A DNA stretch of 64,000 bases from NCBI RefSeq assembly GCF_032362555.1, contig NC_083523.1, forward strand, positions 1,959,501-2,023,500. The letters run 5' to 3'. Below are positions 4,078 to 54,685 of this stretch, piece after piece. The notes beneath the pieces were generated by a model. That model searched no databases, was not told where the DNA came from, and saw only the letters and a list, made by a program, of their open reading frames with translations. The number at the start of each line of letters is the position of its first letter. Positions within the stretch are counted from its first letter, which is position 1. This DNA comes from Amyelois transitella. Its lineage: Eukaryota; Arthropoda; Insecta; Lepidoptera; Pyralidae. The translations under genes and the position numbers were made by a program.

Positions 4078-4671
4078 ATGAGTAGACTTCGACGTGGCCG
4101 TGGCAGATCCTTTGAAGATACACGTATTTTGTGTGTTAACTGCAACATATTATGTGTTAATAGACTACGCCGTTATCCGGCTTTAGACCTGAATCCCCGA
4201 GTTACAGCTTTACTCGCAAGTTTGGTCTATCCAAAAGATGTAAGTATTTTATTATTACTTATAATATATATATGTATAATGTTAGGTATGTCTTTTTAGC
4301 TTGTGGGTATCTTACCTTTTCCATGTATGTAGGTATATACTTGAAGTTGCCTGTTTCATTAAGTATAATTAATTTGTTTCAAAAATCAAGTAGAAGAGAT
4401 CTGTATATATTTTTTATGAGAAAACTCCGGCCGTGCGCTGCGTTAAGCGGGTGCACGGCGCGGGCACCCGCGCGGCGTGATGTTTCATGTAAATTCATAG
4501 AGCAGCGCTGCGTAAAGGCGGAACGCCCGTCACACGCGGCGCGGGCGACGGGGGTACGCTCGCGTGTCCGTGCGACGGAGCACGCGAGCGGAGATGTTTC
4601 TAGAAAATCAGTGAGCGCCGCTGCGTTATCCGTGTCGCACGCGCCGTGCTTGTACAATCAAGTTGATAAAC

Positions 4672-6714
4672 ATGAGTGATATTGATACGGAACGTGTTAT
4701 TTTAGAAGTGCAATGTCGCCCCGCTTTATGGGATCTGTCTAACAACTTGTATAAAGACAGGGATGCGCGTCAAGCTGCATGGCTCGAGATTTGTAAAGAA
4801 TTATACGAAAATTATGAGGACTTCAGTGACACAGAAAAAAAGTCAACAGGTAAATTCTTACTTTTTATTATGACTTTATAAATTTATTTACTACATAATT
4901 ATTTACTTCTTTCATTTATTAAGGTGGGTACAGACTATATAACATAACATGTTATACGACATTGCTATATAACAAGTTTCAGATAATGTGGACACTGAAT
5001 GATATAAAACATGTTAAAATAACATGTAATATGTTACATAGTCTGTACCCACCTTTAGGCTTAGTAAACATTTTGTATTTACTTATGTTAATTGTTATTT
5101 AACTATTGTATTGTGACCTCTTCACGAGCAAATTTTTTTTAACTTAAGTAAATAATCAATAAATACAGCGATCTTGCCACGATACCTTACCGTTTGTGGC
5201 AAAGTAATCAGCGAACTGATCTCGTATTGTATACGAGTTTCTTTGAACTAGCCCAAATCCATTTGTGATATCGCGGATATGGCGGGGTGTTATGACAACA
5301 TCGCTGATATTACCGAATCCGTCTCTTTTTCGTACAAAATTATGCATTATACAAATTGCTTTTATGAAACAAATGGCATGTTCTCTAGAAACGTTAAGTG
5401 GACGATGAAGTATTCGAAACTTATTGGCCATTATTCCAAAGGTTGATTCAATGTAACGTCTAGCTCTTGACAATCTATAATTAAATATTTTCTTTCTATG
5501 ATCCATTGCAATAGCCCGCGCATATGGTCGCATAAGATGTGTAGACAGTCCAAACGCTTCATCTCCAACTATGACGTATGGCACTGGTGTGGTAGCTGCA
5601 GTATTGGTTGGTTTATTATTTTGTAGCACTGGCAATGATTTTGGAGGAGGAATATCTAATAGCTCATCCTGCATCTGTTGAAATAAAGTGCTGTTGGTGA
5701 AAACTGAAGAGTCAGATTCTTTACCTTGTATTCCAACATTTATGTAGGTGAATTCATAGTTTGCGTTACACATTGCAAGCAAGACAATGGAATAGTAATG
5801 TTTGTAATTGTAGTAAAGTGATCCGCTGTGAGGTGGTCTTATAATCCGTATATGTTTTCCATCTACAGCACCTAAACAGTTAGGAAAATTTGTGTTGCTT
5901 AAAAAGCCTTCTGCTATGTCTTCCCATCGCATACGTGTAAATACTGGTATACATTCTTCTTTCAGTCTTTGCCATATAATTTGACAGACATCATTAACAA
6001 TTTTTCGGATGGTAGATTGTCCCGCATGGTACGCCAAGTGCATATCCACGAAAGTATGTCCACTTACTAAGTACCTGTGAAAAATACAAAATTATTTTTT
6101 AAGTATGTATTATTTTTCATTTTTCAGAAAAAAAAATACAAGCGCGATGGAAAACCGCGAGAGATTGCTATACGAAAGTCAAAGCTAGTAACAAGAAACT
6201 TAAGTCTGGTTCTGGTGCTAAAAAAGGAAAAGGGTACAGCTATTATAATATTATGACTTTTCTGGACTCTAACAAAAGAGTAGAAGGACAAGAATCTTTG
6301 GAAAATTCTCAGGACGACTCTTCGGGTCATACAAGTACACTTGAATTGTCCCAACACCCAATAGTTGACACTAGTGAGGTGTTAATACCTGAGACCAGTA
6401 CATCTGGAAATGAAAATGACACAGCAAGCAGAGAAACGCAAAAACAATCAAAGCGTAAAAAGGCGTCGTCGCCGACTCCTTTTGAAATACAATTATTACA
6501 ATCCATACAACACAAAAAGGACGAAGAAAATGATGAAGACTTGTCATTTTTTAAATCTATTATGCCAAACATAAAAAAATTGTCTACATATCAAAAATTA
6601 TTGTTTCGATCAAAGGTATTAAACTTATTAATTGACATTGAAAAAGAAAATGTTATTACATTGGAGGATTTATCGAACATCGTACTGACAAATGACACTC
6701 AAGCAGAACATTAA
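4672..6714 (+). CDS. Harbinger E1 MADF-domain protein
   Basis: Two exons: 4672-4849 (ATG at 4672, donor CAG|GTAAAT, phase 1) and 6128-6714 (acceptor TTTTTCAG), giving about 254 aa with no stop. Residues 1-90 form a MADF domain (ILEVQCRPALWDLSNNLY, AAWLEICKELYENY, then ARWKTARDCYTKVKASNK across the splice). A Ser/Thr- and charge-rich linker follows, then a BESS-like helix (FFKSIMPNIKKLSTYQKLLF). In this superfamily the MADF/Myb protein binds element ends and helps the transposase enter the nucleus. The 1.3-kb intron holds the transposase's main exon in antisense. The TTG at 4663 is less likely as start than the ATG at 4672. Confidence 0.85.
4922..5054. mobile_element. Tourist-like MITE in the E1 intron
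   Basis: A 133-bp segment whose ends are inverted repeats starting AGGTGGGTACAGACTAT, with further imperfect pairing inward (ATAACATGTTAT). It is flanked by TTA on both sides (4919-4921 and 5055-5057). A 3-bp TTA target duplication and no coding capacity fit a Harbinger-related MITE. Confidence 0.8.
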
Positions 6715-7340
6715 TCCTATTATCAATTATTTACTGCATTTATACTCTATTTGAAGAAAGACAAAGATTGGAAGTAGCCTTATAATATTGTTAATTATGA
6801 TAATTACAATGACTGTGATTTTGATTTACTTTACGTATGTACCTACACTACCAAATTGTTATACTTAGTTCTCATTAAAGTAATTGTAGATTAAAATATT
6901 GTTAATTATAATAAGTGATAAATCCAATCACTGTGATTTTACTGTTACTTATGATTATGATAAGTCCAATAACTGATTTGGTTGTATACATGCGTGATCT
7001 TGACTGACAAAATAAAAATATTTTATATCAAGAAAAACATTTTATTTACTTACCTTGCCGTTATTGCCAACCTCTCTATTGGTAATATAATTGATACACT
7101 TCTTACTTTTAGAGTATTAGCACTATGTTTCAAATATGGTTCAAGTTTCGAAAATAATTCATCAAATGTAGACGTTGACATTTTAAAATACTTAAAAAAT
7201 CTCCTCTCATCTTCTCTTAATAGCGTAAACTTGGTTACAAATTCTCCACACAACATTCTGGACGAGACATATGGGCTGATTGGCTGCCGCTGTTGTCTAC
7301 GTCGTCTTTTGGCTAGGTAGTATATCAACAAATAATCCAT
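5156..7340 (-). CDS. Harbinger E1 DDE transposase (HARBI1-like)
   Basis: Two exons on the minus strand: 7340-7054 (ATG, donor AAG|GTAAGT) and 6074-5156 (acceptor TTTCACAG), joining in phase to about 401 aa. Exon 1 supplies a basic N-terminus and a helical region (DERRFFKYFKMSTSTFDELF). Exon 2 is DDE_Tnp_4: GAVDGKHIRI (first Asp, about residue 167), VIVGDEAFGL (second Asp) and RRYIESTFGIMANKFRI (Glu), with NYRLSRARR before it. All three acidic residues are present and the frame is open, so activity is plausible. An upstream ATG at 7448 lies in the terminal repeat region and is less likely to be the start. Confidence 0.88.
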
Positions 7341-7609
7341 TATGAATCGACTGTACACCCGCACGTCTAAAATTGTACTGGCGGCGCTGCGTTTAGCGGG
7401 AGGTCGTTGCGGATACCCGCGACGGGCTATTTGTCCGCGACGGAGCACGACGCGGATGCCCGCGACGGATGCCCGCGTCGGATGCCCGCGCCGTGCACCC
7501 GCTTAACGCAGCGCACGGCCTCCTAGGTTGGCTTTTTACGGCTTATGTCTAGTCTAAGAAGTATTCATTATAGTCACCCATTTAATTAATGTAATTGTTT
7601 CTCTTCCAG

Positions 7610-7864
7610 ATGAATGAGAATGACTTCGTATGTGAAGCATGCAGAGATCTTTTGATATTTGCAATAAATGATAATTTGCAACAAGAAGTTACCAGTGGTG
7701 ATGGAGAACAAGCTGGATCTAGTCAGAGGGGCCACACTAATGTGTGCCTTCTTTGCGGTTGTTCAATTACACAAAGGCAAAGTGACAGGATACTAAGAGA
7801 CAATCCTAATGAACTCCATCAATCTATGATAGACATAATCAAGAACAAAGTAGCGCCACGGCAG
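7610..7864 (+). CDS. Exon 2 of the ISL2EU-type gene
   Basis: An internal exon of exactly 85 codons in phase 0, flanked by TCTCTTCCAG and GTAAAT. It encodes a CEAC pair near its start and CLLCG in the middle, consistent with an N-terminal zinc-binding region shared with exons 1 and 3. The Harbinger E1 element ends 89 bp upstream of it, inside the intron. Confidence 0.65.
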
Positions 7865-8154
7865 GTAAATAAAACAAATATTTGCTTTTCTTTTTCTTGA
7901 GCGATCAACACTGGTGTTAGATTTTTGCATACAAATACTCAGGCTCCAAAGTCTTAAACTTGCCTGCCTAAGAACACACCCAATGTACTTGAAAATTAAT
8001 TATGAGTCTTGTTACTTGAAATAAAATAATTCTTGAAATAAATTAATATGTAAGAATAAAAAGCTACTACAATCAGCTTTATCTGCATTACACATGGATA
8101 TGGTAGAAGTACTATTTATTTCAACTACAAATTATAAAAAAAATATATTTTCAG

Positions 8155-9820
8155 GTAACAACTACCGATAGAGTATGTCATGCATGTTGGCTGAGAACTC
8201 AAAGAGAAGTACGTAGAATGCATCATGTGGACAGTGAACATGGACAACAATCTGCATCAGACATTTCACAAGATCGGGAGGAGTCTTCTGATTTAAATGA
8301 AAGAAGACCTGAGGGTGTGGAAGATGAAACAATCACACAAACGATTTTAATACCTGGATATAAAAGAGCTGCAAACAACAATAAAAGGTGTGTTTTTCTC
8401 AATTGCCCTCAAACAACACTGAGAAGCATATCAGATAATTTTCGTGCTCTTTTGATTAAAGATCATAGGTTTTATATACCTAAATTAGCTCGTATATGCG
8501 ATGATCATATAAATAGCAATTTGTGGGGTACACTTTTCGAAGCTGATAACTCCATTGAAACATTTAGTGCTGATCAAATAGCACATGTTTTTTCATTTGT
8601 CAATTCTTTAAATGTGACAATAGATTTTGAAAACCCATTAGAAATGGATGATCAGCTATTTCGCTACTGGATTGGGTATACAAAGGATCAATTCCGTACA
8701 CTATTAGAAGAAATGCCTCGATTGAGTGAAATTAGAAAAGGGACAGTGGGTTTAGCCATACTGTTAATTAAAATGAGAACTGGAGACTCAGATGAAAGAA
8801 TCTCTTTATTAATTGGAATGCCAAGAAGAACAATGGAGACATTAATGCATAAAGTGCGTGAAATTCTTGTACAAGACTTTGTTCCTTCCAATTTAGGCAT
8901 CAATCATATATCAAGAGAACAGTTGCGTCAACACTCTCTATCAATCCCTGAAGGTTTATATGGGAATGGAAGTAATGCCATTGTTATTTGTGATGGTACA
9001 TACATTTATATTCATAAAAGTTCCAATTACATGTTCCAAAAACAAACTTATTCCCTACATAAATACCGAAACTTGGTTAAACCTTTCTTGATTGTAGCAT
9101 GTGATGGTTATATTATTGATATTTTCGGCCCATACAAGGCAACTACATCAGATGCTGATATTATGAAAAGCCTCTTTTCAGAAGGATCTGCTCTAAGATC
9201 ATATTTTTTAGAAGATGATGTGTTCATTTTAGACCGTGGTTTCAGGGATAGTATTAGTTTATTAGAAGGATGTGGGTATAGAACTTGTACACCAGATACA
9301 CTTTTAGAAGGAGAACGCCAACTTACTACAGCTCAAGCCAATGAGAGTCGCTGCGTAACACTGTGTAGATGGGTAGTAGAGGCTGTAAATGGTCATTTCA
9401 AAACTAATTTTAAATTATTTAGACAAGAATACTTTCACTTGGCTCTGCCTAACTTATGTGAACTTTTTTCAATTGCAGCGGCTCTATTAAATAGGTTTGG
9501 TGTTCGATTTCAAGACAATGTGTACGTAAATGAAATATTAGAGATAATAAGAGAACGTAAAACACTTGAAAATAATTTATCAAATAAAATTGATGAATTA
9601 AATATGAATAGACGCACATCCTTCTTTGAAAGCATCACAGCTGATAGAAATAATATTTCATATTTCCCTGTAATGGAAGAGAGAGATTTAATATTATTCG
9701 CTCTTGGAACTTACCAGATTAGGCAAGCCCGGTCATACTATGGGGAACATATTAGAAGTCATGGGGGATACAGGATAGAAGTGAGTAGAGAATATGTGCG
9801 ATCATCTGAATATGATCTTA
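8155..9820 (+). pseudogene. Exon 3 (5' part) of the ISL2EU-type gene: DDE core
   Basis: Opens after acceptor TTTTCAG with VTTTDRVCHACW. It reads about 550 codons through the THAP-like/zinc region (NCPQTTLRSI...ICDDHI), a helical segment (IRKGTVGLAILLIKMRTG) and the catalytic core with Asp, Asp and Glu in CDGTYIYIH, LDRGFRD and VVEAVNGHF. It stops being homologous at SEYDL, where E2's TIR begins (9821). The open frame continues into E2's GC-rich terminus by chance, so the last part of the nominal ORF is not native. Confidence 0.8.
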
Positions 9821-10076
9821 GGGTGCGTCCACATCTGGCGAATGTGCCGCGAATGTGCAGCTCGCGAGCCGTTTGCGAGCTGCGCGCGTACAATTTTGTT
9901 CGAGCGCCGCTCCTGCGCCGCCCGCGCGCAGTTCACGCGCAACCTAAGCGCCGTACGCGATCAGCGCGCGGGCGGCGCGCTAGCGGCTCGCGTCTTCCTT
10001 CCACCCGCGTCTCAATCCCCGCACCCCTTACCCGCTCAGTTCGTTTCTGATTATTGGAGGTTAAGTACGTGTTGTC

Positions 10077-11791
10077 ATGGAGTGGACGGAGGAGAACTGT
10101 TTACGCTTAATTGAAACATATAAAAGATTTCCAGTTTTGTGGGATCCTAAAGATCAATATTACTATAGAAAAAATGTAAAAAATGATGCGTGGAAAGAAA
10201 TTGGTGCTATAATGGGAAGCGATTATGAACAATGCCGTAGCAAACTGTTAAGTCTTTTATCTTCTTTTAGAAGAGAGAAAGGAAAAAGTCAAAAAAGTAA
10301 AGGGACAGGGAAAGGCGAGTAAAAAACTATTTGTTACTTTTTATGTTTTATTTTATTAGTTAAATTGACTATGTAACTAATATTATTCTATATTTTTAGG
10401 TGCATCCGAGACTTACAAAAGTAGATGGTTTGCCTATGACGCTTTTTCCTTTTTAGCTGATCGGGATAAACCAAGGAAACGTATAAATACTGTAAGTAAT
10501 TAAATCAACAATATTTATCTTGAAATGCAATACGGCCTTCATTTACGCAATAAGAAGCAATCTCATCTCTTATTTCGTTTATTTCTCTTGAATATCTTAT
10601 TTGTGATGTTTGAATATTTGAAAGAGATGTCAAATTAGGTACGGATTGATTTATATACATATTGGAATTAGTTGTATAACTATCGGTGGCGTTCTGTTTC
10701 AAATAATTATGCAAGTGAATAATACTCATAACGACTACTTCAGCAACTTCTGGTTTTAATATCATAGGTTTTCTAAGTACCCTAAAAATGGATGATGCAA
10801 TGCCAAAGGCACTCTCAACAATTCTGCGAGCTCTGCTTAATCTATAGTTAAAAATGCGTTCCGGAGTGCCTTTACTGTGGTTACCGGAGTATGGTTTCAT
10901 CACATGTTTATCTAGAGCAAAAGCGCTGTCAGCAACAAAGAAGTAGGGTATCGCTTTAGTCCTGTAAGGTAATGCTTTTTCTTGTGGTAAATTTAAGGAG
11001 CCATTTTGCATCATCTTGTAGAACTCTGTATCTTTGAATATCCCTCCATCAGATATACGCCCCTGGCAACCAACATCAGCAAACATAAATTTATAATCTG
11101 AGTCTACCAGTGCAAACAGAACAATACTAAAAGTAGATTTGTAATTATGATATTCAGTTCCACTTTTCGGAGGTGCCTGTATGACTATATGTTTACCGTC
11201 TATTGCGCCAATGCAATGGGGCAAATGCCATTTATCTTCGAATCCTTTACTCACTTCTAGCCATATTTCTGGTCTCCTTGGCACCTGAAAAATAATAATA
11301 TAAATATAAAAACATTATTACAGGAACAGGCAGATATAGAACAAGATAAAGTGGATGAGCGACAGGTACAAGATGATGGAATAAATACTGACACTGAAAG
11401 CGACCTGTCTTTTATTGAACCTCCGCCGTCCAAAAAGAAAAAATCGACGGATGATAAAATCGTAACTGAAGCCCTACAATGTTTAAAGACTGCTACAGAA
11501 AAATTGAGCGATAATTCCAAATTGTCACAAGAAGTACATTCATTTATAAATTTTATTGGAGCCAAAATGGAATCTTATTCACGTTCAACAAAAAATATGG
11601 TTCAACAGGCAATATTTGATGTCATAATGAAAGCTGATTCTGGGTACTATGATTATCAACCAAATATGCAAGTGTCAACGCAAGGTTATACAACTTATTC
11701 TCAAAGTGCTTCTACGTCCAGACCGCACAGTCAGGAAAGTAATTATTCGGCAGAAGATACGAATGACAGCTACAGTGATTTGTTTCAATAA
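10077..11791 (+). CDS. Harbinger E2 MADF-domain protein
   Basis: Three exons: 10077-10314, 10400-10491 and 11324-11791, about 265 aa. The MADF domain spans exons 1-2 (NCLRLIETYKRFPVLWDP, DAWKEIGAIMGSDYEQCRSK, then ETYKSRWFAYDAFSFL). The C-terminal exon has an acidic linker, a BESS-like helix (SFINFIGAKMESYSRSTKNM) and a Tyr/Ser-rich tail. Intron 1 only gives an open, homologous frame if its donor is GC (AAAG|GCGAGT). Using the GT two bases downstream leads quickly to a stop. Intron 2 (10492-11323) contains the transposase's catalytic exon in antisense. Confidence 0.8.
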
Positions 11792-12303
11792 TAACTACTT
11801 TCTTTTTGTAAACTTATATGTTGCTTATAAAAAAGGCTATGTGATTATTTAATAAAGATAATTAGAAAAATACTCACACGTACGTTTTCCTTTAAACACT
11901 TGATAATCGCCAAACACACTTCAGGAATAATAATACTTATACTTTGCTTAGAAATTCTAAAAAGGTACTGCAAGCTTGTGTAGGAATCTCCAGTGGCCAA
12001 GAATCGTAATGTCAAACTTAATTTATTTTCAACTGAAATTGGTAGCCTAAAATGCGTTTCCTTTTTAGCAATCTTGAAACTAAGCATGTGTAGTAGATTT
12101 TCATATAATTCTGGTGACAATTTTAAAAAATTTGCATAGTGGCCGCTTAATTGATGGCTTTTTAACTCCGCTACTATATTCTGTTTTCTTTTAAAAATAG
12201 GATTTTGCCACCAACGCCGTTGTCTCTTTTTTTTCCTTTTTATCAGTAATATAATAGCTAATGATGCAGCAATTATATTAAAAGCACTAGTGTCGTCCGA
12301 CAT
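10505..12303 (-). CDS. Harbinger E2 DDE transposase (HARBI1-like)
   Basis: Minus-strand exons 12303-11878 (142 codons, donor CGT|GTGAGT) and 11284-10505 (acceptor TTTCAG) join in phase 0 to about 401 aa. Exon 1 holds the N-terminal helical region (KLSPELYENLLHMLSFKIAK, LRFLATGDSYTSLQYLFRIS). Exon 2 holds the catalytic core: IGAIDGKHIVIQ (Asp), YFFVADSAFALDKH (Asp) and ARRIVESAFGIASS (Glu). The third-domain Glu and all spacing look normal. The ATG at 12303 (MSDDTSAF) is chosen because upstream codons lie in the TIR. Confidence 0.87.
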
Positions 12304-12524
12304 CTTCGAAAGTACTGAGCCAGTAAATGGAACTGTAAGCGCGAGGATTGAGTACGCGCAGATCGCGCGCCGCGCGCACGCCTTATACGAGCCTTGTATG
12401 AGTTGCGCTAAGGCGGCGCAACGAACCATTGCAGTGACTGCATGCGTGCAGCGCGAGTGCAGTTCGCGTACCGTTCGTGAGTTGCACATTCGCGGCACAT
12501 TCGCCAGATGTGGACGCACCCTGA

Positions 12525-25629: not shown

Positions 25630-26461
25630 ATGAATAATTAATGTGGATCAGCGTTAATATGAATAATTTCAGTAAATTTGACGATTATTAATATCACCGG
25701 ACTCGAGGCGGCATTACTACCTAAAGGAAAATTCTGCAGATGACGAAGTACATTTATATGGTGTTAAGTAGTAATATTATATTTAAATAACTAACCCAAC
25801 ACTCGAACAGGTAATGTTAAGTGTGTTAATTAAGGATTTTATAAGGTTAGTACTATTTATTACACTTAATGTTTTTTAATACCTAGCATCTTTCTCCATT
25901 GTTTTTTTACGTAATATTTGCTATAATTATATCCTAATTATACTTAATTAAATAGGTATAGGAAGCATTGTTGTTTCATTATTTGGATATATTATTTGTT
26001 ATTTTAGCAAATTCTTTTATTATTCACGTAAAATAAAGGTGCATAGGTCAATTTATTGTTACTAAGTTATCATCGCAGGTGTATCATAGGAACCTAGGTA
26101 GGTCAATTTTGGTTGCCGTCGTGTGTGATTGTAATTTGTTATTTCGGATTAATGAGCCTATTTTATTTATGGTGATGTACTTATTTTCAATGCAAATTAA
26201 TTAGTTAACTTGATAGTTTAATTTTGCAACGAAAATCACTTAGGCCCTTGTTATAATTTAATAGACAGTAAAGTTTGTTTTATTTTAATTTATCGACACA
26301 TTCATTTTCAATTTATGCATTTTGTTAATTTAATTGTCGACAAATTATTGTTAGATGATTAACGCATTAAATTGGTAGGCATGACTGTATCTTTACTTTA
26401 AACATCGTTTATTTATATTTCCATTGTAAACATTTCAGGTTGACCACATCCGTTTCCCAAT

Positions 26462-28705
26462 ATGTCTGAAGAGAAGGAACTTGTTAAGAAACGAGGTAGT
26501 TTTAAGGGACGTTTGACGCTATTCATCAATTACCTGGATGGGTTGCCAGAATTTGATGAACAGTTGGACAGTTGTACGGTCAGGGAATTGCAATTACGGA
26601 TGGGGAAGATCGAAAGTATGTATGAACTTTACAATGAGGTACAGTTACGTTTAGAATGTTTAGCTGACGATATCAATTTTCGATTAACCGAACGAGCTGA
26701 GTTCGAGTCTTTGTATTACAACTCACTGTCTAGGGCACAGGACTTACTATGTAAGTACAATAATGATAAAGAGTCGGTAAGTAGTGATAAAATTACCCGT
26801 ATTAGTCAACGTAAGCCTGTTAGGTTGCCCACCATTCAGCTCCCAAAGTTCAACGGGACTTATAGCAATTGGTTGGAGTTCCGTGACACTTTTATCAGCC
26901 TTATTCATTATAATGACGAAATTGACCAAATTAATAAATTCCATTACTTGCGAGCGTCTTTGGAGGGATCTGCTGCTGTTGTAATTCATGCCGTTGAGTT
27001 TTCAGCCGGAAATTACGACATAGCTTGGAAATTGATATGTGATCGTTTTGACAACAAAAGATTATTGGTGCAGAATCATTTATCCTCCTTATTTAATTTA
27101 AACACTATAGTGAAAGAGTCATCTTTTGTGTTAAAAGATTTAATTGATCAACTTAATAAAAATCTACGTGCATTGGAGTCACTAGGTGAGCCTGTGAAAC
27201 ACTGGGACACTTTATTAATATATATAGTGACTTGTAAATTACCTCAGCAAACATTGCGTGAGTGGGAGGATCATAAGGGTCGCATAGATAAAGATATAAT
27301 AATAACATTTAGTACATTCCTACAATTCATTCGCATGCGCTCTGATTTGTTGGAAACCTTAGAGTTAGCGCGAGCTCGCAATAATGCTTCTCCCTCTAAG
27401 CATAGTACAGGTAGGATACAATCTATGCTTGTTGCAAATCCCAACAATAATAATTTAAATAATAAGTTGTGTCCGCACTGTAAGTCAGATCACTTGTTAA
27501 GTAGTTGTTCACAATTCCTTGCGCTTAGTGTAGACGCCCGTTACAAGTTAATGCCTAACTATAAAGTTTGTTACAATTGTTTTCGTATTGGTCATTTCGC
27601 CAATCGTTGTAAAAGGCTGGGTTGCAAATTGTGTAAACGCCGTCACAATATATTGTTGCATTTGACGGATAATAAGCGTGTTTCAAATTCTTGCAATAAT
27701 AATGATAATAAAAATACATCACGAGATAGCTCATTTGTTTCTATGCCTTCGTTACCGCCCGCTGACGCTGGGACAAGCACTGATGCGAGTGCAAATAATT
27801 TAACTTTGTCTGCGGATCTCAGTTCGTCTTGTGGTGATAACGGTGAACACCGCGGTGGTGTTTTGTTGTCTACCGCTCTCATCAAGTTATGTGATCAGAA
27901 CGATCGTGAGCACATAGTGCGGGCCCTGCTTGATAGTGGTAGTACCTCATCATTTATGACAGAACGCTTATGTACTCGGCTCAATTTGAATACAAGTCAT
28001 GTTAATGGTTCAGTCTATGGCATAAATAACGTGAGTTCTCACGTAGGCAAAATTTGTCAGGTAAAGATGACGTCTTTATACAACTCTTATACTGCGAAGT
28101 TGAGTTGTTTTATTTTGCCATCGTTAATGAGTGTTATGCCTTGTCGTGAAATCGACATTTTAGACTTGAATATTCCAGATAACATATTTTTAGCGGACCC
28201 CACATTTAATAAGCCGTCAGAAGTAGATATATTAATAGGTGCTGATCTCTTCTGGGACTTGGTCGGGTCACAGAGAATTAGACTAGGTGTAGGTAAGCCG
28301 GTACTGTGTGACACGTTACTAGGCTGGATAGTTTCCGGTCCTGTTACTTATAATCAAGGCAAGCGTAGGTCAAATGATATTTCTTGTAATTTTACTCAGA
28401 CAGATTCCCCTTTTAATGATGATTTTAATAAAATTCACAATGATTTGGTGAAGTTTTGGAATCTGGAAGAGATAAACCCTCCATTCTCTCATTATTCACC
28501 TGAAGAAAGGTTATGTGAGGAACATTTTTTTAAAAATACGACACGTTTAGAAGATGTTCATTTTTGTGTTCGTATTCCTATGAAGCAAAGTCCTTCCATG
28601 TTAGGAGACTCATTCCATAGGGCATCTAAATGTTTTTATTCTCTAGAACGTAGACTAAAAGCAAAGCCTGACTATGGCACTATGTATCGAGATTTCATGC
28701 CTTAA
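26462..28705 (+). CDS. BEL gag-protease polyprotein, truncated before RT
   Basis: 747 codons from MSEEKEL. Residues ~110-330 form the gag-like DUF1759 region (LPTIQLPKFNGTYSNWLEFR). Zinc knuckles follow (CPHCKSDHLLSSC, CYNCFRIGHFANRC, CKLCKRRH). A pepsin-like protease has the active-site triad ALLDSGSTSSF, then LLGWIVSGPV. The ORF enters the short region before RT (FWNLEEINPPF, KQSPSMLGDSF, YGTMYRDFMP) and stops at 28703-28705. The YVDD-containing RT and most of RNase H are absent. A leader of about 850 bp separates it from the LTR. Capsid formation in trans is conceivable; self-replication is not. Confidence 0.88.
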   Translation: MSEEKELVKKRGSFKGRLTLFINYLDGLPEFDEQLDSCTVRELQLRMGKIESMYELYNEVQLRLECLADDINFRLTERAEFESLYYNSLSRAQDLLCKYNNDKESVSSDKITRISQRKPVRLPTIQLPKFNGTYSNWLEFRDTFISLIHYNDEIDQINKFHYLRASLEGSAAVVIHAVEFSAGNYDIAWKLICDRFDNKRLLVQNHLSSLFNLNTIVKESSFVLKDLIDQLNKNLRALESLGEPVKHWDTLLIYIVTCKLPQQTLREWEDHKGRIDKDIIITFSTFLQFIRMRSDLLETLELARARNNASPSKHSTGRIQSMLVANPNNNNLNNKLCPHCKSDHLLSSCSQFLALSVDARYKLMPNYKVCYNCFRIGHFANRCKRLGCKLCKRRHNILLHLTDNKRVSNSCNNNDNKNTSRDSSFVSMPSLPPADAGTSTDASANNLTLSADLSSSCGDNGEHRGGVLLSTALIKLCDQNDREHIVRALLDSGSTSSFMTERLCTRLNLNTSHVNGSVYGINNVSSHVGKICQVKMTSLYNSYTAKLSCFILPSLMSVMPCREIDILDLNIPDNIFLADPTFNKPSEVDILIGADLFWDLVGSQRIRLGVGKPVLCDTLLGWIVSGPVTYNQGKRRSNDISCNFTQTDSPFNDDFNKIHNDLVKFWNLEEINPPFSHYSPEERLCEEHFFKNTTRLEDVHFCVRIPMKQSPSMLGDSFHRASKCFYSLERRLKAKPDYGTMYRDFMP

Positions 28706-31021: not shown

Positions 31022-31788
31022 ACGTGAAATCCCAATCAACATATATTACTTATCTTTTCATTTGACTTTTATAGTGCTGAAAACTATAAGATGCTAATTA
31101 TGCCAAATAATGAATCCGATTGCTTTAGTTAGTGTTAGTTTATTGCTGTGCTGTAATGTTACTTTATTTTTTGTTTTATAATAATATGTCAAAACTTCTA
31201 TAAAACATACAAAGATATATTTTAATTTTTTTGTGTTTAATTTTCACTTTTGTGTTAACCATATTTTTAATATGACTTTCCTTCAGTTTTAAATTCAAAA
31301 ACTAGTAGATTCTTAATGTTGAAGTACTTGCTAATAAATCCAAATAATAAGACTGATTACTTCAATTGTTAATCATTTAGTTTATTTTAAGTGACAATAA
31401 AAATGAAAAATTACTAATTACATTTGTTTGTACGAGTATTACTCTGCCCAAAGGGTGATGTACAATATGTAGAATGCCCGGTCAATTTGTTTATCTGAAC
31501 AATTATTATTAAATTGCTCTCTCAGATTGGGCATTTTTCATAATGACCGGGCATTATTTATAATGCCCAATTTATCATTTGGACCACAACATACATTCAG
31601 TCAGAAAAGTATCGGGAATGGATTATTTATTTATGGTTCCAAATTCAAATTTTTGTTTTTTTTGTTGTTGTTAGATTGGCACAACTGTTTTCCATTTTGG
31701 CGCGGAGTTTGAGTTGCATCTGTTGTTTACATTAAATACAGTGCTATTTTTAGTTATATCATATCTAGTGTGTATTGCTAATTTCATA
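31022..31788. other. AT-rich interval with an inverted-repeat motif
   Basis: No gene. At 31473-31577 the motif tgcccggtca and its reverse complement tgaccgggca occur about 60 bp apart, forming a hairpin-like block that also resembles 24655-24710 in inverted orientation. From 31650 to 31788 lies the 5' leader of the mariner gene. Its TIRs were not recognised. Confidence 0.4.
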
Positions 31789-32862
31789 ATGGATAAAAAC
31801 ATCGAACAAAGAGTTTGTCTTAAATTTTGCATTGCCAATGGAATATCGTGTTCGGAGTCACTGAAAATGTTACAGAAGGCTTACGGTGAATCGACTTTAT
31901 CAATAACTCGTGCTTATGAGTGGTACAAAGCGTTCAAAAGCGGTCGAGATGTGATGGAAGATTTGCCTCGCTCTGGTAGGCCATCAACGTCTGCAACTGA
32001 AGTTAACATCGCAAAAGTGAAGGAAATAGTGACTGAAAATCCTCATTCAACTTTGAGAGAGATAGCCACCGAACTTTCTGTATCTCACGAGTCGATCCGT
32101 ACCATTTTAACTAATAATTTGGGTATGAAACATGTTGCCGCTCGGCTAGTCCCAAAAGACCTGAATTTTTTTCAAAAACTCAATCGCATGAGAGTCGCTG
32201 AGGACATGCTAGAACGAGTCAATTCCGACCCAACATTCATGAAACGCATTGTTACTGGTGACGAGACGTGGGTTTACGAGTTTGACATGCAAACTAGTCA
32301 ACAAGCTTCGGAGTGGCGCCTTCCAACTGAACCGAAACCGAAAAAACCACGCCAAAGTCGTTCAAAAGTCAAAGTCATGTTGACTGTTTTCTTTGACCAT
32401 CGCGGTGTTGTGCACTCGGAATTCTTGCCGGAAGGTCAAACGGTAAATAAGGAATATTATTTGAGTGTTATGCGGCGTTTAAGAGAGCAAATCCGACGAA
32501 AAAGGCCAGATTTGTGGAAAGAAAATTCTTGGATTTTGCACCATGATAATGCACCTTCGCACAAGGCCATCATTGTGAACGAATTTTTAACCAAACACTC
32601 AACAAATACCATCGAGCTACCACCATATTCACCAGATATGGCTCCAGCCGACTTTTTTCTTTTTCCTAAACTCAAATTACCACTTCGTGGCACCCGTTTT
32701 CAATCGGTAGAAGACATAAAAGAGAATTCGCGGCGAGAACTGAACTCAATTCCGGAAACAGCGTTTAAAAAATGTTTTGATGATTGGATTATTCGTTGGC
32801 GTAAGTGTATCGTTTCTAAAGGAGCATATTTTGAAGGTGATAAAATAAATTTGGATGAATAA
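31789..32862 (+). CDS. mariner transposase, intact
   Basis: 357 codons from MDKNIEQRVC, with no stop. The N-terminal HTH (FCIANGISCSESLKMLQKAY) is followed by a second HTH (TLREIATELSVSHESIRTIL). The DD34D core shows IVTGDETWVYEF (first Asp), LHHDNAPSHKA (second Asp) and the YSPDMAPADFFLFPKLK block carrying the third Asp. The C-terminal part (LPLRGTRFQSVEDIKENSRR, CIVSKGAYFEGD) is complete. The length matches the family norm of about 345-360 aa. Upstream in-frame codons back to 31714 are leader. It cuts and pastes the element at TA sites. It sits directly 5' of a pogo DDE fragment. Confidence 0.92.
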   Translation: MDKNIEQRVCLKFCIANGISCSESLKMLQKAYGESTLSITRAYEWYKAFKSGRDVMEDLPRSGRPSTSATEVNIAKVKEIVTENPHSTLREIATELSVSHESIRTILTNNLGMKHVAARLVPKDLNFFQKLNRMRVAEDMLERVNSDPTFMKRIVTGDETWVYEFDMQTSQQASEWRLPTEPKPKKPRQSRSKVKVMLTVFFDHRGVVHSEFLPEGQTVNKEYYLSVMRRLREQIRRKRPDLWKENSWILHHDNAPSHKAIIVNEFLTKHSTNTIELPPYSPDMAPADFFLFPKLKLPLRGTRFQSVEDIKENSRRELNSIPETAFKKCFDDWIIRWRKCIVSKGAYFEGDKINLDE

Positions 32863-33285: not shown

Positions 33286-33851
33286 TAATAGATTTCGACA
33301 TCGGCTCATTTCAGTTGCCGTGACCTTGTAGGAGCGAAAGCACACGCTAGTTTACATCAAAGGCGTCATAATTCATACTAAAACTATCTTCCGGAAAAGG
33401 TAAGCAATAATTAATTTAATATTATTTTTGTTACAATGACACATCTTTTCCATTACACGGTTTCTCGCCGTGAAAATCTACGGTTAATTCGCCGCGTGTA
33501 GGCACGGTCGTCAGTGTGGTATGGATCACTATATGAGCTTGTCGACATGCACGGTGGCGCCAAGGCACGGCGCCGCGGCCGCGTGCGCCGTGACTGCCCC
33601 TCGGCGCGCCGCGTCTACGCACGGCGTGATTTTCACCAGTGTTGTATGGCAGTCTATCGGGTTGTGTCGACGGTGCCGGACGTAGGGCGTGGACCCATGT
33701 CTACGGTGCGGCGCCGTTTGCCGTGCAACGGTACGGCACCGCCGCCGGCAGATGGCGCGGCGCCGTGCCGCGCCACGGCGTCGTGTACCGACGTGCTCAT
33801 TATTGTGTTGTCAGTTGCATAGTGCGCACGTGGTAATTTTTTTTGCATAAA

Positions 33852-35815
33852 ATGGCGGACGATTTAGATTTAGACTTTTTGATTTCACTAGTGGAAGCAC
33901 GTCCCGTTCTCTGGGATAAGTCAAAGGAGGATTATAAGAATAAAAATTTAAAAACAGAAGGGTGGAAAGATGTCTGCCTAAATATTTTTCCATCATTCGA
34001 CAGCATGGACAATAAAGAAAAAACGAAACTCGGTGAGTATATACCTACCTATTTATTTATCTTTTTAACTTAATAAAGTGAATACAATAAACATCAAAGT
34101 GAAATCAATGCATTAATGCTTAGTATTATTATGAACTTGCCATTTACACACACTCAATACATTTGGTGGGTTCGATCCGTGACCCAACTTTAGTTATATT
34201 TTGCTTAGTTGCCAACTAAGCGCACCGACATCACTATTAAAGTATTTACAAAATTCGTCTCTTATATTGACAGGATTTGTTAAGGAAACGTCATCTGCTG
34301 TTTGTGGAAGGTTCAAAAAACAGTCGTCAATATATAACTCCTCTGATTTTCTAACTCCATCTCGACTTACAACAAAATTGTGTAAAACACAACATGCTTT
34401 GATAATGTCGGTCGCAAAATTATATTGAACATTTAAGGGCCGATGAAATACTCGCCATTTATTTGCGAAAATACCAAAAGCACACTCGACATATCTTCTT
34501 GCTCGACTCAAACGATAGTTGAAAACCCTTTGTTCTTCTCTGAGATGCTTCCCTGGGTATGGACGAATTAGATTGTTAAGTAACGGTAGGCCTTCATCAG
34601 CGATAAAAACATAGGGAACTGAATTTTGGAGCCCCGGTAAAGGCTTTGGCGCTGGTATGGGAAGTCGATTTTGCAATAATAATTCGTATAGTTTTGAATT
34701 GTGGAAAATGGTGGAATCACATTCCTTTCCATACGATCCTATATCAACATATACAAATCTATACTTAGAATCCACCAGTGCCAGCAAGACTATAGAGTTA
34801 AAACTTTTATAGTTAAAAAAAAGGGACCCACTGTGGGCAGGACTACATATTCGGATGTGTTTCCCGTCCAATGCCCCCATGCAATTCGGGAAATTTGTTC
34901 TTACGTCAAAATCCTTAGCTATTTTTTCAATTCGCTCTTCGGATATTTTCGGTATACTTTCACTTAAAAGAATGTCCCATATAGCACGACAAACATCTCG
35001 TACAATTTTTCCAATTGTAGATTTTCCACGATAATCTGTGAATTCCATATCTCTGAATGAATTCCCTGTTGCCAAAAATCTGCAAAAGAAACATTTCTTA
35101 AAATTTTACAGACCATTATAAAAGCAATTTTATTATCAGTTCTATTTTTATAACGATTGTTACAGGTAATGACGTCATAAAAAAATGGACTAACATTAAG
35201 GATAATTTTTTCAAATATACAAAGAAGGTAGAACTTTCAAAGAAATCTGGAGCTGGTGCTAAACGTATAAAAGAATATCATTTGTATAGACAACTCATGT
35301 TTTTACAAAAAAATGCACCAAATTTAACTGAAGATAGTATAGAAGAAGAATCTCAAACTCCGAACACAAGGTCAAGATATCAACCCTACAGAAAAACTAC
35401 GCTAAAACGAAAACCAAGTTGCGATGAATTTGAGAAGCAAATCGTCGAAACTTTAGCTGCTTCTGAAAATCGACACCTGTCATTTTTTAAAGCCATTTTA
35501 CCGTCTCTCAACAAGTTAAATGACCACCAGACCTTGCTATTTCAAAGCGGGGTTTTAAAGATTTTAACAGATTTCCATCAATCACCATTCCAGTCATATA
35601 GCGGGTACCAGACAGCAACATCTTACGACGCTAACTATAACCAAACTGCCCAACAACCACAAGCTACAATGTCTTATGAAACTAACTATCAAACAGCTTG
35701 TAATTCATCAAACCCAATTAGTATAAATCGTCGCGAAACATCACCAGTCTCAACTTTGGAAGACATCATGTCTAATACCACAGATACACTGGAATCCGAA
35801 TACGATTTTTCTTAA
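33852..35815 (+). CDS. Harbinger E3 MADF-domain protein
   Basis: Two exons: 33852-34032 (donor CTCG|GTGAGT, phase 1) and 35166-35815 (acceptor TTGTTACAG), about 276 aa. The MADF domain is split by the intron (FLISLVEARPVLWDKSKEDY, TEGWKDVCLNIFPSFDSM, then KKWTNIKDNFFKYTKKVELS). Basic GAGAKRIKEYH leads to a linker and a BESS-like helix (FFKAILPSLNKLNDHQTLLF). The tail is Gln/Asn/Ser-rich. The intron contains the antisense catalytic exon of the transposase. Confidence 0.86.
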
Positions 35816-38073
35816 ATCATAATAAATACGAAAAAGATTACATTATTACTGATTTATATTATAATGTTCGAAATTGTGGAAGCACTTAAGAGTATGAAAG
35901 CGGGAAAGGCTGCTGGGTGTGATAGAGTGTCGGTCGAGATGCTTAAAGCAGGAAAAGGCGTAGTAGCTAGTCAGTTGTACTGCCTTTTCAATTTGTGTTG
36001 GAGAAGCGGCCGAGTACCAAAAGATTGGTGTAAGGCTGTTATCGTGCCACTTTACAAAGGAAAAGGGTCACAGCTGGACTGCAAAAATTATCGTGGTATA
36101 AGCCTGCTTAGCGTCGTCGGCAAATTGTATGCTAAGGTATTGATTAATAGAGTCAGGAATGAAACTGATGACAAAATATGGGATGCTCAAGCGGGATTTC
36201 GAAAGGGAATGGGATGTACTGATCAGGTCTTTTCCTTGCGGTGCATAGCCGAAAAGTTTTTGGCCAAGAGTCAAAAAGTCTATTGCACATTCGTAGATCT
36301 GGAAAAGGCCTATGACAGAGTTGAGAGGAATGAATTGTGGTCAGCACTTTCTATGCATGGGGTGAGCAGTCTCTTAATACGAGCACTGAAATCCTTATAT
36401 GAGGATTCGAGTGCTTGTGTCAGGATAAACGGAGCGCACACTGAGTGGTTTAAGATTGAGAAAGGCGTTAGGCAAGGATGTGTTGCGTCACCGTGGCTGT
36501 TCAACCTATTTATGGATAGCTGTTTGACAGATTTGAAAGAGTCTAAAAGTGGATTAAGGATGAATGAGTTACTCGTCAAATGTCTGCTCTATGCCGACGA
36601 TCAGGTTATACTGGCGTCATCAGCGGAGGAGTTACAGGAGATGGTAAACTGTATGCATGAAGCTTTAAAAGAGAAAGGAATGAAAGTGAACGTAAGTAAA
36701 ACTAAAACACTGGTTTTTGAAATGGAGAAAGAAATGACAGCATGTAATATTTTGATTGGAGGAGAAAAAGTGGAGCAAGTGAAAGAGTTTGTATATCTAG
36801 GATCAAAGTTTACATCAGATGGCAAGTATGATAGTGATATTGAAAGGAGAGTGAACGCGGGGAACATGGTGAATGGAGCTTTGCATGCCTTTATGAGCAG
36901 TCAGAAACTATCCAAAAAGGCTCGACTGGCTGTGCACAGGGGCGTGTTGGTCCCGACATTAATGTATGGGAGTGAAAGTTGGGTATGGCAAAAGAAGCAT
37001 GAAAGCAGAATAAATGCAGTGGAAATGAGAGCGTTAAGGAGTATGATGGGTGTGAAATTGAGTGACAGGATAAGGAACAGCGTGATAAGGGAATGTTGTG
37101 ATGTGAAAGAAGATGTAGTTACAGGAATAGAAAAGGGTATGTTAAGATGGTTCGGTCATGTGGAGAGGATGAATGAAAGCAGGTTGACTAAGCAGATATA
37201 CAAGGAGAGTGTGGAGGGAAAGGTCGGAGTGGGAAGACCTAGACGAACGTATCTTGATCAAATTAAGGACGTCCTGGTAAAGGGTCAGGTCAAAAGTACC
37301 CGAAACCGCCGAGCTTGTATGAAGAGAGTTATGAATGTGGACGAAGCGAAAGAAGTATGCAGAGATCGTGGCAAGTGGAAAGAGGTAGTCTCTGCCTACC
37401 CCTCCGGGAAAGAGGCGTGATTTTATGTATGTATGTATGTATGTATGTTATATTATAATTTTGTAAGAAAACGGTTTTTTTATTGATTTTCTTCTTTGTT
37501 GATTTTTTTTTGTTTGATTGTTATTGATACAAAGATTACAATATTATGGTTGCGAAAAGAAGTAAAAAATATACATTTGTTTAAATGCGTGAACTTGATT
37601 GTTTTATTTAAATTCTGCAAAAAGGACCACTTGACGAGTTAGCAATTTTAAAAGGCTTGGCGGATTGACACAAAACACAGACCTAGCTAATACATACGTA
37701 TGAATACATCAAAGAAAATATTTCTATGATTAGAATATGTAAATAAGTTGAAATAAATTTCTTTTTTTTACCTTATAGTTAAGCCTAGCATTTCCATGGG
37801 CCCAACAGGTTTCCTGAACACGTATTTCTTCTGTATACGAGGCGCTATTTTGGTTAGCAGTTCTTCAAAACTTGATATAGACATTCTAAAATATTCGTAA
37901 AATTTGTCATCACCACATATTTTCAACGCTTCATATTTCCTCTTAAAATGATCTCCATCATGGTTCATTATAGAAAGGTATGGATTTACCCAATATTTTC
38001 TTTGATTTCGTTTTTTCTTCATTCGTCGACGTCTTAACAGCAACAGGAGCAGGATACGTCTTTTGCGGTCCAT
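34194..38073 (-). CDS. Harbinger E3 DDE transposase (HARBI1-like)
   Basis: Minus-strand exons 38073-37772 (ATG MDRKRRIL, donor AAG|GTAAAA) and 35079-34194 (acceptor TTTTGCAG) join in phase to about 395 aa. Exon 1: basic N-terminus and EYFRMSISSFEELLTKIAPR. Exon 2: GALDGKHIRICSPAHSGSLF (Asp), VPYVFIADEGLPLLNN (Asp) and RRYVECAFGIFANKWRVFHR (Glu). The frame is open throughout. The 2.7-kb intron contains the MADF last exon in antisense and also the LINE insertion, so the LINE does not disturb the coding sequence. Confidence 0.88.
35864..37420 (+). CDS. LINE reverse transcriptase ORF (5'-truncated)
   Basis: About 518 codons open. RT motifs in order: KAVIVPLYKGKGSQLDCKNY, GISLLSVVGKLYAKVLINRV, AGFRKGMGCTDQVFSLR, TFVDLEKAYDRVERNELW, KGVRQGCVASPWLFNLFMD, LLYADDQVILASS (catalytic YADD) and VYLGSKFTSDGKYDSDIERR. 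The C-terminal part (MLRWFGHVERM, VGVGRPRRTYLDQIKDVL) is present up to the stop near the tail. The ATG overlaps the target duplication, so it is not the native start. The N-terminal endonuclease is absent. The clade is not settled; RTE/Jockey-like elements are candidates. Confidence 0.88.
   Translation: MFEIVEALKSMKAGKAAGCDRVSVEMLKAGKGVVASQLYCLFNLCWRSGRVPKDWCKAVIVPLYKGKGSQLDCKNYRGISLLSVVGKLYAKVLINRVRNETDDKIWDAQAGFRKGMGCTDQVFSLRCIAEKFLAKSQKVYCTFVDLEKAYDRVERNELWSALSMHGVSSLLIRALKSLYEDSSACVRINGAHTEWFKIEKGVRQGCVASPWLFNLFMDSCLTDLKESKSGLRMNELLVKCLLYADDQVILASSAEELQEMVNCMHEALKEKGMKVNVSKTKTLVFEMEKEMTACNILIGGEKVEQVKEFVYLGSKFTSDGKYDSDIERRVNAGNMVNGALHAFMSSQKLSKKARLAVHRGVLVPTLMYGSESWVWQKKHESRINAVEMRALRSMMGVKLSDRIRNSVIRECCDVKEDVVTGIEKGMLRWFGHVERMNESRLTKQIYKESVEGKVGVGRPRRTYLDQIKDVLVKGQVKSTRNRRACMKRVMNVDEAKEVCRDRGKWKEVVSAYPSGKEA
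35866..37447 (+). mobile_element. LINE (non-LTR retrotransposon), 5'-truncated, recent
   Basis: Bounded by a perfect 12-bp target duplication TTATATTATAAT (35854-35865 and 37448-37459). It has a 3' (ATGT)n tail, and its 3' terminus matches two other minus-strand fragments in the window (40544-40593 and 57879-57990). The endonuclease part is missing. It is inserted in the transposase intron of E3. Confidence 0.92.
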
Positions 38074-38279
38074 AACAAGCCAAAACTAATTTTGGTATAA
38101 GTGCTGAGCGTGTACGTGCCGGTACACGACGCCGTGGCGCGGCACGGCGCCGCGCCATCTGCCGGCGGCGGTGCCGTACCGTTGCACGGCAAACGGCGCC
38201 GCACCGTAGACATGGGTCCACGCCCGTACGCACGGATTCGTGACCGCTTATATATGCTGTTTCGCGATTTTATTATAAA

Positions 38280-38454
38280 ATGAACATAAATCAAGAATTA
38301 TTAATTACGTTGATTCAAGAAAGGCCTGTAATATGGGATAAGACCATCGACGATTATAAAAATAAGCGGCTTAAATATGATTCCTGGAAAGAAATATTTA
38401 TTCATTTCCAGCCCACATTTGAAGATTTAAGTGGTGATGAGAAAAACAAGTTTG
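38280..38454 (+). CDS. Harbinger E4 MADF exon 1
   Basis: ATG at 38280 opens LLITLIQERPVIWDKTIDDY and DSWKEIFIHFQPTFEDLSGD, the first half of a MADF domain. It ends at donor TTTG|GTAAGT in phase 1, as in E1, E3 and E5. The matching MADF second half is not found downstream, so the gene is broken. Its sequence is closer to the E3 protein than to the others by eye. Confidence 0.7.
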
Positions 38455-38488: not shown

Positions 38489-38895
38489 TTATGCATAGTT
38501 GTTTTGATAGGAGAGGCGACCTTCGTTAGATACAAAATATTGTGCAAATCTGTTGCGAACTTCATTAGCCGCCAAACTTCCGCGAACTGCATTCGTGATA
38601 GGTAACTGGATTAGTTCCGATTCTGAATCAAGGGTGGACTCATTTTCACTCGCATTGTGAAACTGAAAGTTTTCCTGCTTATGTATAAAATTTTGCAAAA
38701 CACAACATGTTTTCACAATATCAACTGCCAAATCGATGGACACATTCATTGGCCGGTGAAAAATTCGCCATTTATTGGATAAAATGCCAAACGCACATTC
38801 AACAAATCTTCGCGCTCTTGTGAGTCTGTAGTTAAATGTACGTTTTAATTGATCAAGCTGATGACCACCAAATAGACGAAAGTAATTAAGTTTTA
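38489..38895 (-). pseudogene. Harbinger E4 transposase, C-terminal remnant
   Basis: On the minus strand the frame reads FNYRLTRARRFVECAFGILS (catalytic Glu), NKWRIFHRPMNVSIDLAVDI and KTCCVLQNFI, then a C-terminal tail to the stop at 38489. Upstream it fades after FGGHQLDQLK at about 38890. Both Asp residues and the first exon are gone through an internal deletion. Confidence 0.82.
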
Positions 38896-38911
38896 CTTTT
38901 TTTTAGCAAAC

Positions 38912-50100: not shown

Positions 50101-50828
50101 CTCCTAATTCAGTTGCCTTTCAAGGAGCATTTAAGGCGCTTTTATTAAATAATTATAACTCTCCTCATTCTAATCGATCTAACTGTGAAGAAGACAATAA
50201 CAAATGTCTGCAGTCATTACATTTTTTTTTAGATAAAGAAATCATTGAAACTTCTGATGTTCCTACTCATGAAGGAAATGTATTTTGTAATGAAGATATT
50301 TTTGATGTAGTCGATTTTAATAATGAAATAGACGCAGGTCAAAGAAATTATGTATGTGGATGGGTCTTGACTAAATGCTTAAAAAATGTTGCAAAAGGCT
50401 GTAAACAATGTAAAGAAGACTTACTTGATAACAAAAATGATAACGAAAGTAATGCATTCATAAAAGCAAAAGAATATGCCAACAAGAAATGGCTTTGTTA
50501 CCCCAACAAATATACAGAACATTGCTTCCATGAAATACAAAATATAATAATATCATTTTTGAAAAAAGACGCACCAAAAACAAATGTAAAAAAAAATATA
50601 TGTGCTTTTATTAACTTATTAGTTAATTTCCCATTTAAATGTCAGAGGCACAACGAAGTTTTAAAAGAATATTTCACTAATATTACCCTCAACGTAGTGT
50701 TACACAGTTGGTGTCGCTCAGTCAACCGAATTTTGAGTGGTAAAATAAAATATGAAGGGGAGGACGAAATTAAAACAGCTGCACAATTGTACTACGATAA
50801 ACACAAACATTATAAAAATAAAAAATGA
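47129..50828 (+). CDS. P-element-type transposase with THAP domain, intact
   Basis: Five exons join in frame: 47129-47165, 47483-47689, 47841-47954, 48037-48126 and 48583-50828, about 897 aa. The THAP zinc finger occupies residues 1-80: C5 and C9 (LCAFGC), C55/H58 (VCDKHF) and AIPSLYL at its end. A Lys/Leu-rich coiled coil follows (IRMLRLEISRLRKKTTTFKA). The RNase H-like P transposase core shows LIFDEMSLTPQVSYD (first Asp), VINTVCDQSTVNV (second Asp) and FNQDPAENFFGNVRSFGG (Glu). A C-terminal CxxC region (GCKQCKED) is present. THAP binds element ends and the core cuts DNA in known P elements and THAP9. All splice sites are GT-AG. It resides within the 5' part of Harbinger E5. Confidence 0.88.
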
Positions 50829-54285: not shown

Positions 54286-54685
54286 CACAATTAAAGTAAA
54301 ATTGCTTTGCTTTGATTTATCCTTTAACTTGATATATAAATAAATACATATAAATTATAAAAAAGTTTCTTATTGCTTACCTTAATGTCACTGCCAGCTT
54401 TTCTTCCGGTGATACAGCTTCTCTAAATCGCGTGTTTCTTTTGTAGATGTCGTCCTCAATAATATTAAGTATATAATAAAACAAGTATCTCGGCATACGG
54501 AAATAGATATAGAATTTTTCTTCGTCATCTAGCAGACGTTTCCGGATATTCCAATATTCCCCTTCTGATTTCCTTTGTCGCAACATATCATGTACCCAAT
54601 ATCTTCTTTTCCTGCTGTTTCGTTCATTTTCATTATCAAATATAATAGCTATAATCGCCAGTTCACTGAATGTAAAGTTCGACAT
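52432..54685 (-). CDS. Harbinger E5 DDE transposase (HARBI1-like)
   Basis: Minus-strand exons 54685-54381 (MSNFTFSELAIIAIIF, donor AAG|GTAAGC) and 53350-52432 (acceptor GTTTCAG) join in phase to about 407 aa. Exon 1: RRYWVHDMLRQRKSEGEYWN, FYIYFRMPRYLFYYILNIIE. Exon 2: CIGAIDGKHVNIIAPPSSGS (Asp), PHVFVADEAFPLKWNL (Asp) and ARRVVENAFGILYQKFGIYN (Glu). No interruption. An earlier ATG at 54835 lies in the subterminal repeats and is disfavoured. Confidence 0.88.
54009..54218 (+). repeat. Coding minisatellite, five 42-bp units
   Basis: Five in-frame 42-bp units (TACACAACTCAAAACCTAAA...) alternate between ...AGTATC and ...AGTAGC endings, suggesting duplication of an 84-bp pair. Each encodes 14 residues of the E5 MADF protein. 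Confidence 0.93.

Follow-up and report, generated by a model that had tools for sequence, protein, structure and literature searches.

At positions 4429-7520 of the window (the whole 64-kb stretch of genome DNA that was analysed) lies a complete Harbinger element, E1. It carries a MADF gene on the forward strand and a DDE transposase gene on the reverse strand, and an exon of each gene is placed within an intron of the other. Gene models were rebuilt from the sequence with exact splice boundaries, and the splicing they contain is predicted. The parts of E1 are:

4429-7520: E1, complete Harbinger element of type A (the types are defined below), with TIRs at 4429-4470 and 7479-7520 and TCC on both flanks
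4672-4849, + strand: MADF exon 1, first half of the MADF domain; donor gtaaat
5156-6074, - strand: transposase exon 2, with the whole DDE_Tnp_4 match; within the MADF intron 4850-6127
6075-6127: 53-nt spacer separating the opposed 3' splice sites
6128-6714, + strand: MADF exon 2, second half of the MADF domain plus BESS; within the transposase intron 6075-7053
7054-7340, - strand: transposase exon 1, N-terminal part

The surroundings of E1 (window positions 1-64000) are crowded with further mobile elements. Within the E1 MADF intron itself there is a MITE-like insertion of ~135 nt (4921-5055), with 26-nt inverted ends and TTA on both sides. E1 in turn sits in a likely intron of another Harbinger-like gene on the + strand (4083-9820), whose 3' coding part is interrupted by a second element, E2. 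The parts of this + strand gene are Cys-rich exons followed by DDE_Tnp_4 (4083-4240, 7610-7865 and 8155-9820, limits set by eye), the domain being matched in the ORF 8107-10050. Among ten ORFs scanned, we also found two DDE_Tnp_1_7 genes (721-1539 and 55547-57319), a mariner-like gene (31675-32862), a TNP-like gene (48525-50828) and a DUF1759 polyprotein (26444-28705).

Elements comparable to E1 recur along the window, in one case as a deleted copy (E4). The comparison of elements covers this one 64-kb window, and their parts are:

9821-12521: E2, type B, with TIRs; flanks TTA and TGA
10077-10314, + strand: E2 MADF exon 1; GC donor
10400-10491, + strand: E2 MADF exon 2, end of the MADF domain
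10505-11284, - strand: E2 transposase exon 2, catalytic; within the MADF intron 10492-11323
11324-11791, + strand: E2 MADF exon 3; within the transposase intron 11285-11877
11878-12303, - strand: E2 transposase exon 1; includes the 42-codon segment found in exon 2 of type A
33685-38225: E3, type A, with 106-nt perfect TIRs and GTA on both sides
33852-34032, + strand: E3 MADF exon 1
34194-35079, - strand: E3 transposase exon 2, catalytic
35166-35815, + strand: E3 MADF exon 2
37772-38073, - strand: E3 transposase exon 1
38280-38454, + strand: E4 MADF exon 1, in a deleted copy with two of four exons recognisable
38489-38902, - strand: E4 catalytic-exon remnant, with a DDE_Tnp_4 match
51466-51598, + strand: E5 MADF exon 1; type A
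52432-53350, - strand: E5 transposase exon 2, catalytic
53396-54285, + strand: E5 MADF exon 2, with a repeated C-terminal tail
54381-54685, - strand: E5 transposase exon 1
61457-61793, + strand: E6 MADF exon 1, complete MADF domain; type B
61995-62092, + strand: E6 MADF exon 2
62108-62920, - strand: E6 transposase exon 2, catalytic
62976-63180, + strand: E6 MADF exon 3, with a broken frame; start uncertain by 2 nt, end provisional
63546-63977, - strand: E6 transposase exon 1, with one internal stop

The MADF gene has three exons in E2 and E6, and the first E2 intron (10315-10399) is a GC-AG intron. For E6, the last MADF acceptor was set 2 nt beyond the first AG to keep the frame. At the C-terminal end of the E5 MADF protein (54009-54220) are near-perfect repeats of a 14-residue unit.

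The assignment of these genes to MADF and Harbinger transposase families, made in the first-pass annotation, is confirmed by profile matches. MADF (PF10545) is matched in E1, E2, E3, E5 and E6, and DDE_Tnp_4 (PF13359) in the same elements and in the E4 remnant; BESS is matched in E1 and E5 only. TIRs are present in E1, E2 and E3, while the right end of E6 falls beyond the window and no TIRs were found for E5 (inverted-repeat score 20 against a shuffled maximum of 28). A 3-bp target site duplication flanks E1 (TCC/TCC) and E3 (GTA/GTA), with one mismatch in E2 (TTA/TGA).

In E1, E2, E3, E5 and E6 the exons follow the order MADF-5', transposase-3' (antisense), MADF-3', transposase-5' (antisense). 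The first-pass annotation had proposed that the antisense catalytic exon lies wholly within a MADF intron and the last MADF exon wholly within the transposase intron, and for both statements the rebuilt gene models agree in 5/5 of these elements, which are the ones with all four blocks. The spacing it gave for the two opposed 3' splice sites was recomputed with identical values: 53 nt in E1, 39 nt in E2, 86 nt in E3, 45 nt in E5 and 55 nt in E6. Once joined, the frames of both genes are open in four elements (E1, E2, E3 and E5); E6 is decayed, with a stop in the transposase 5' exon and stops in the last MADF exon. In E3, a reverse transcriptase ORF (35816-37420, RVT_1) occupies the part of the transposase intron that separates the MADF stop from transposase exon 1; the E3 interlock thus contains a large insertion and yet keeps both joined frames open. 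The layout was said to persist despite strong divergence, and it does: the catalytic exons are 37-47% identical to that of E1. E4 had also been credited with the same order. Its two exons do fit that order, but they are only MADF exon 1 and the catalytic-exon remnant and do not show an interlock; E4 was therefore rejected as support. In the 498 nt that follow to the right, nothing resembling the last MADF exon or transposase exon 1 rose above shuffled controls. Judged from the sequence, we regard the Harbinger interlock as a real structural variant of a known transposon superfamily.

It might be objected that the genes are not spliced in this way, and that the blocks are separate ORFs or scrambled copies. 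Several observations make this highly improbable. Intron phases are consistent within each type: in type A, the transposase intron is in phase 2, 2, 2 and the MADF intron that hosts the catalytic exon in phase 1, 1, 1 (also 1 in E4), and in type B both of these introns are in phase 0, 0. The MADF Pfam profile is split alike in 3/3 type A elements, exon 1 ending at profile position 36-40 and exon 2 starting at 44 of 84, and joining the halves improves the match (in E5, 3e-10 and 8e-6 separately and 5e-21 joined; the joined match is 5e-15 in E1 and 1e-13 in E3). A relative that has no intron at either transposase position, L001, aligns without gaps across both transposase junctions, and the four open joined frames speak against the objection as well. 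The consistent phases, the better joined MADF matches and the gap-free L001 alignment make the predicted splicing credible, and the splice sites proposed in the first-pass annotation can be judged sound.

That annotation had treated the five copies as sharing one layout. The interlock is indeed common to all of them, but it comes in two variants. According to the predicted gene models, there are two splice architectures, newly recognised here: type A (E1, E3, E5 and, as far as it is preserved, E4) and type B (E2 and E6). In type A, the transposase intron is in phase 2 and lies just before a 42-codon segment beginning [YF]L.[ST]G, and the phase 1 MADF intron halves the MADF domain. In type B, the phase 0 transposase intron follows the 42-codon segment, and the catalytic exon is in a phase 0 MADF intron downstream of the whole MADF domain. 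Both introns are thus further 3' in the proteins in type B than in type A. Simple drift of splice sites from type A to type B was considered and rejected, as the DNA itself lies on different sides: relative to the last MADF exon, the 42-codon transposase segment is to the left in 3/3 type A elements and to the right in 2/2 type B elements, and relative to the catalytic exon, the end of the MADF domain is to the right in 3/3 type A and to the left in 2/2 type B. With the DNA of both genes so placed, the interlock would have arisen twice or been rebuilt by rearrangement. The sequences suggest, in other words, that both genes were rearranged and that the interlock either survived this or was made anew afterwards, being rebuilt or formed more than once.

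Phylogenies bear on this point. In the transposase trees, which used as outgroup a 300-residue slice of a zinc-finger DDE protein on a very long branch, the only starred group is E1, E3 and E4 (97/97; without E4, E1 and E3 group at 84/98), and the placement of E2, E5, E6 and L001 is not resolved. The MADF tree, with very long branches, sets E2 and E6 apart from E1, E3 and E5 (95/94). Because the transposases are distant and E2, E5, E6 and L001 have no resolved position, the two types may reflect either two origins of the interlock or its rebuilding.

The elements are compact to different degrees. Exons make up 64% of E1, 74% of E2 and 45% of E3, which carries the reverse transcriptase insert. 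In E1-E3, both genes start 149 to 257 nt from the element ends used for this measurement, and GC content is 0.58-0.66 at the ends and 0.33-0.37 in the body, the GC-rich ends adjoining both start codons. In E5, the right end has 0.46 GC with the assumed ends, and an 833-nt gap beside the MADF donor shows that this copy is not compact. Transcript ends and overlaps were estimated from AATAAA hexamers rather than mapped ends. In the MADF sense, transposase exon 1 is preceded by an AATAAA at a distance of 43 nt in E1, 27 nt in E2, 20 nt in E3 and 42 nt in E5; two earlier hexamers occur in E3, one of which is 6 nt past the stop, and in E6 the nearest is 64 nt from transposase exon 1, with three earlier. 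In the transposase sense, AATAAA lies 20 nt (E1) and 25 nt (E3) from MADF exon 1, E1 having two more between this one and the transposase stop, and the only one found in E5 is 667 nt from MADF exon 1. These positions imply that exons nearly tile E1-E3, save for the E3 insert. The transposase genes of E2 and E6 end with a stop only 13-15 nt away from the MADF donor, and the next AATAAA in their sense is not reached until the preceding MADF intron. Their predicted 3' UTR would therefore run across MADF exon 2 (92 or 98 nt), and the mature mRNAs would pair. Predicted precursors overlap by about 2.1 kb in both E1 and E5 and by about 1.5 kb in E2 (roughly 1.5-2.2 kb overall).

How might such a layout have come about and persisted? 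We think it probable that these are two-gene PIF/Harbinger elements whose convergent genes are held in a compact, hard-to-undo interlock, rebuilt or arisen twice, with mutual dampening as a by-product. The MADF gene (+) and the DDE transposase gene (-) would start near opposite ends of the element, each from a promoter there, and converge, and splicing would carry each over its partner's 3' exon, giving the order M5'-T3'-M3'-T5'. Four exons can be arranged in six orders; two of these keep both first exons at the ends, and by this reasoning the interlock is one of only two such orders. The partner's exon would fill each intron, which would make for compact packing, and the layout would be hard to undo, since removal of either intron deletes an exon of the other gene. 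Compactness, together with introns whose loss would in either case destroy the partner gene, would then be enough to account for persistence within type A. The short spacing of the acceptors presumably needs no regulation either, as two facing 3' splice sites in a packed element would suffice. Both mRNAs would depend on splicing, and the complementary precursors would probably cause some mutual dampening, as a by-product and not a cause. A possible origin would be a convergent gene pair whose central part was duplicated in tandem and which then lost one of the two copies of each 3' exon. We found no remnants of duplicated 3' exons in seven gaps (best real match E 0.13, best shuffled 0.005), which leaves the proposed duplication without direct support.

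One alternative is pure descent, in which the layout would be a frozen accident inherited by all copies of a single interlocked ancestor. In type A both genes have their introns at matching positions and in matching phases, E2 and E6 stand apart from E1, E3 and E5 in the MADF tree, and exons so arranged are, on reasoning, not separable one at a time, all of which would be expected from descent. What it leaves unexplained is type B, with the introns and the DNA of both genes placed differently, and as a full explanation we hold it to be rather unlikely. The other account turns on selection. Here the interlock would be a selected control device, in which dsRNA/siRNA or coupled splicing limits the element and balances the two proteins. 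That the interlock occurs in two architectures speaks in its favour, as do the predicted transcripts: the two precursors overlap along most of E1, and once mature the mRNAs would hardly touch in E1 or E3. The transposase 3' UTR predicted to cross MADF exon 2 in E2 and E6 can also be counted on this side. As a sign of such selection, a shortage of antisense poly(A) and splice motifs was sought in the last exons of E1, E2, E3 and E5 (E6 was left out); measured against codon-preserving shuffles, these motifs were not significantly depleted, at low power (six motifs, both strands, 6,090 nt). The strongest trend was for strong antisense 5' splice motifs (0 seen vs 2.2 expected, one-sided 0.093), and antisense AATAAA was above expectation (7 seen vs 4.4 expected). 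Together with the shuffle result, two further points count against a control device: MADF-sense AATAAA is found inside the catalytic exon of E1, E5 and E6, and the domesticated pairs of insects are reported to be neighbouring genes (PMC9710019, in the text available). On balance, we consider such a device unlikely. The proposal of the first-pass annotation that selection may hold the layout thus found no backing: shared descent covers type A, and the antisense motifs are not significantly depleted.

A selected role is nevertheless kept in play, because compactness and hard-to-lose introns explain the difference between types A and B less well. In one form, which we find doubtful, the interlock evolved at least twice or was rebuilt because reciprocal nesting is useful: full-length antisense precursors would all be complementary to the partner and only spliced RNA would escape pairing, so that the element would carry a built-in brake. 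Were this true, both proteins would depend on the splicing competence of the cell. Returning to the compact interlock that we favour, reciprocally nested coding genes represent two transcription units that are not separable one at a time. The presence of two versions in one element family offers a natural test of whether antisense layouts are accidental or selected, and bears on transposon self-limitation. Two predictions can be made: simple gene finders would mis-annotate interlocked elements, and a leftover intron may be what remains of the interlock in domesticated transposase genes.

Relatives outside the window are few. L001 was one relative among 29 pattern matches in genome contigs, and lies on a 3.7-kb contig of a metagenome-assembled genome that looks eukaryotic. 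Besides being without an intron at either transposase position, it has a broken frame in the catalytic part and is cut off by the contig end; a MADF gene was looked for in it by ORF list only. Four scans of viral contigs gave no relative, tblastn against plasmids gave no match, and solved structures gave 0 matches to the transposase profile. No earlier description of interlocked Harbinger genes was announced in titles or abstract openings among the matches listed; one may exist, Repbase being outside the search. The layout is likewise not described in the available parts of PMC9179366, PMC8437027, PMC2884549, PMC11893794 and PMC2330155.

Compared with known systems, the elements resemble PIF/Harbinger transposons, with their DDE transposase and Myb/SANT/MADF protein, in both proteins, in the TIRs (E1-E3) and in the 3-bp flanking repeats (E1 and E3). 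In Medicago PIF/Harbinger elements, as far as the accessible text of the paper goes, orf1 is located upstream or downstream of the transposase (PMC2213677), whereas here the two genes, on opposite strands, have interlocked exons. The co-domesticated insect pairs DPLG7/DPM7, APLG/APM and LPLG2/LPM2 likewise consist of transposase and MADF genes from one element (PMC9710019). Unlike the elements in the window, they are host genes, and the available text of that paper describes no interlocked exons. The domesticated pairs are adjacent, at 97 and 179 bp in Anopheles gambiae and farther apart in some species, and one pair is annotated as dicistronic (PMC9710019). From what was seen, the interlock is not universal in the superfamily, given that L001 is without both transposase introns and that the insect pairs are described as adjacent. 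A cockroach domesticated gene has two exons, with an intron of about 900-1500 bp (PMC9710019), and we speculate that this intron could be a fossil of the interlocked layout. Antiparallel overlapping genes of animals, for which convergent, divergent, nested and embedded classes are distinguished in the accessible part of PMC2330155, also have coding exons within introns of the opposite-strand gene. The overlap in the Harbinger elements differs from these classes (PMC2330155, same part): it is reciprocal, it belongs to a transposon, and it recurs in copies that have diverged.
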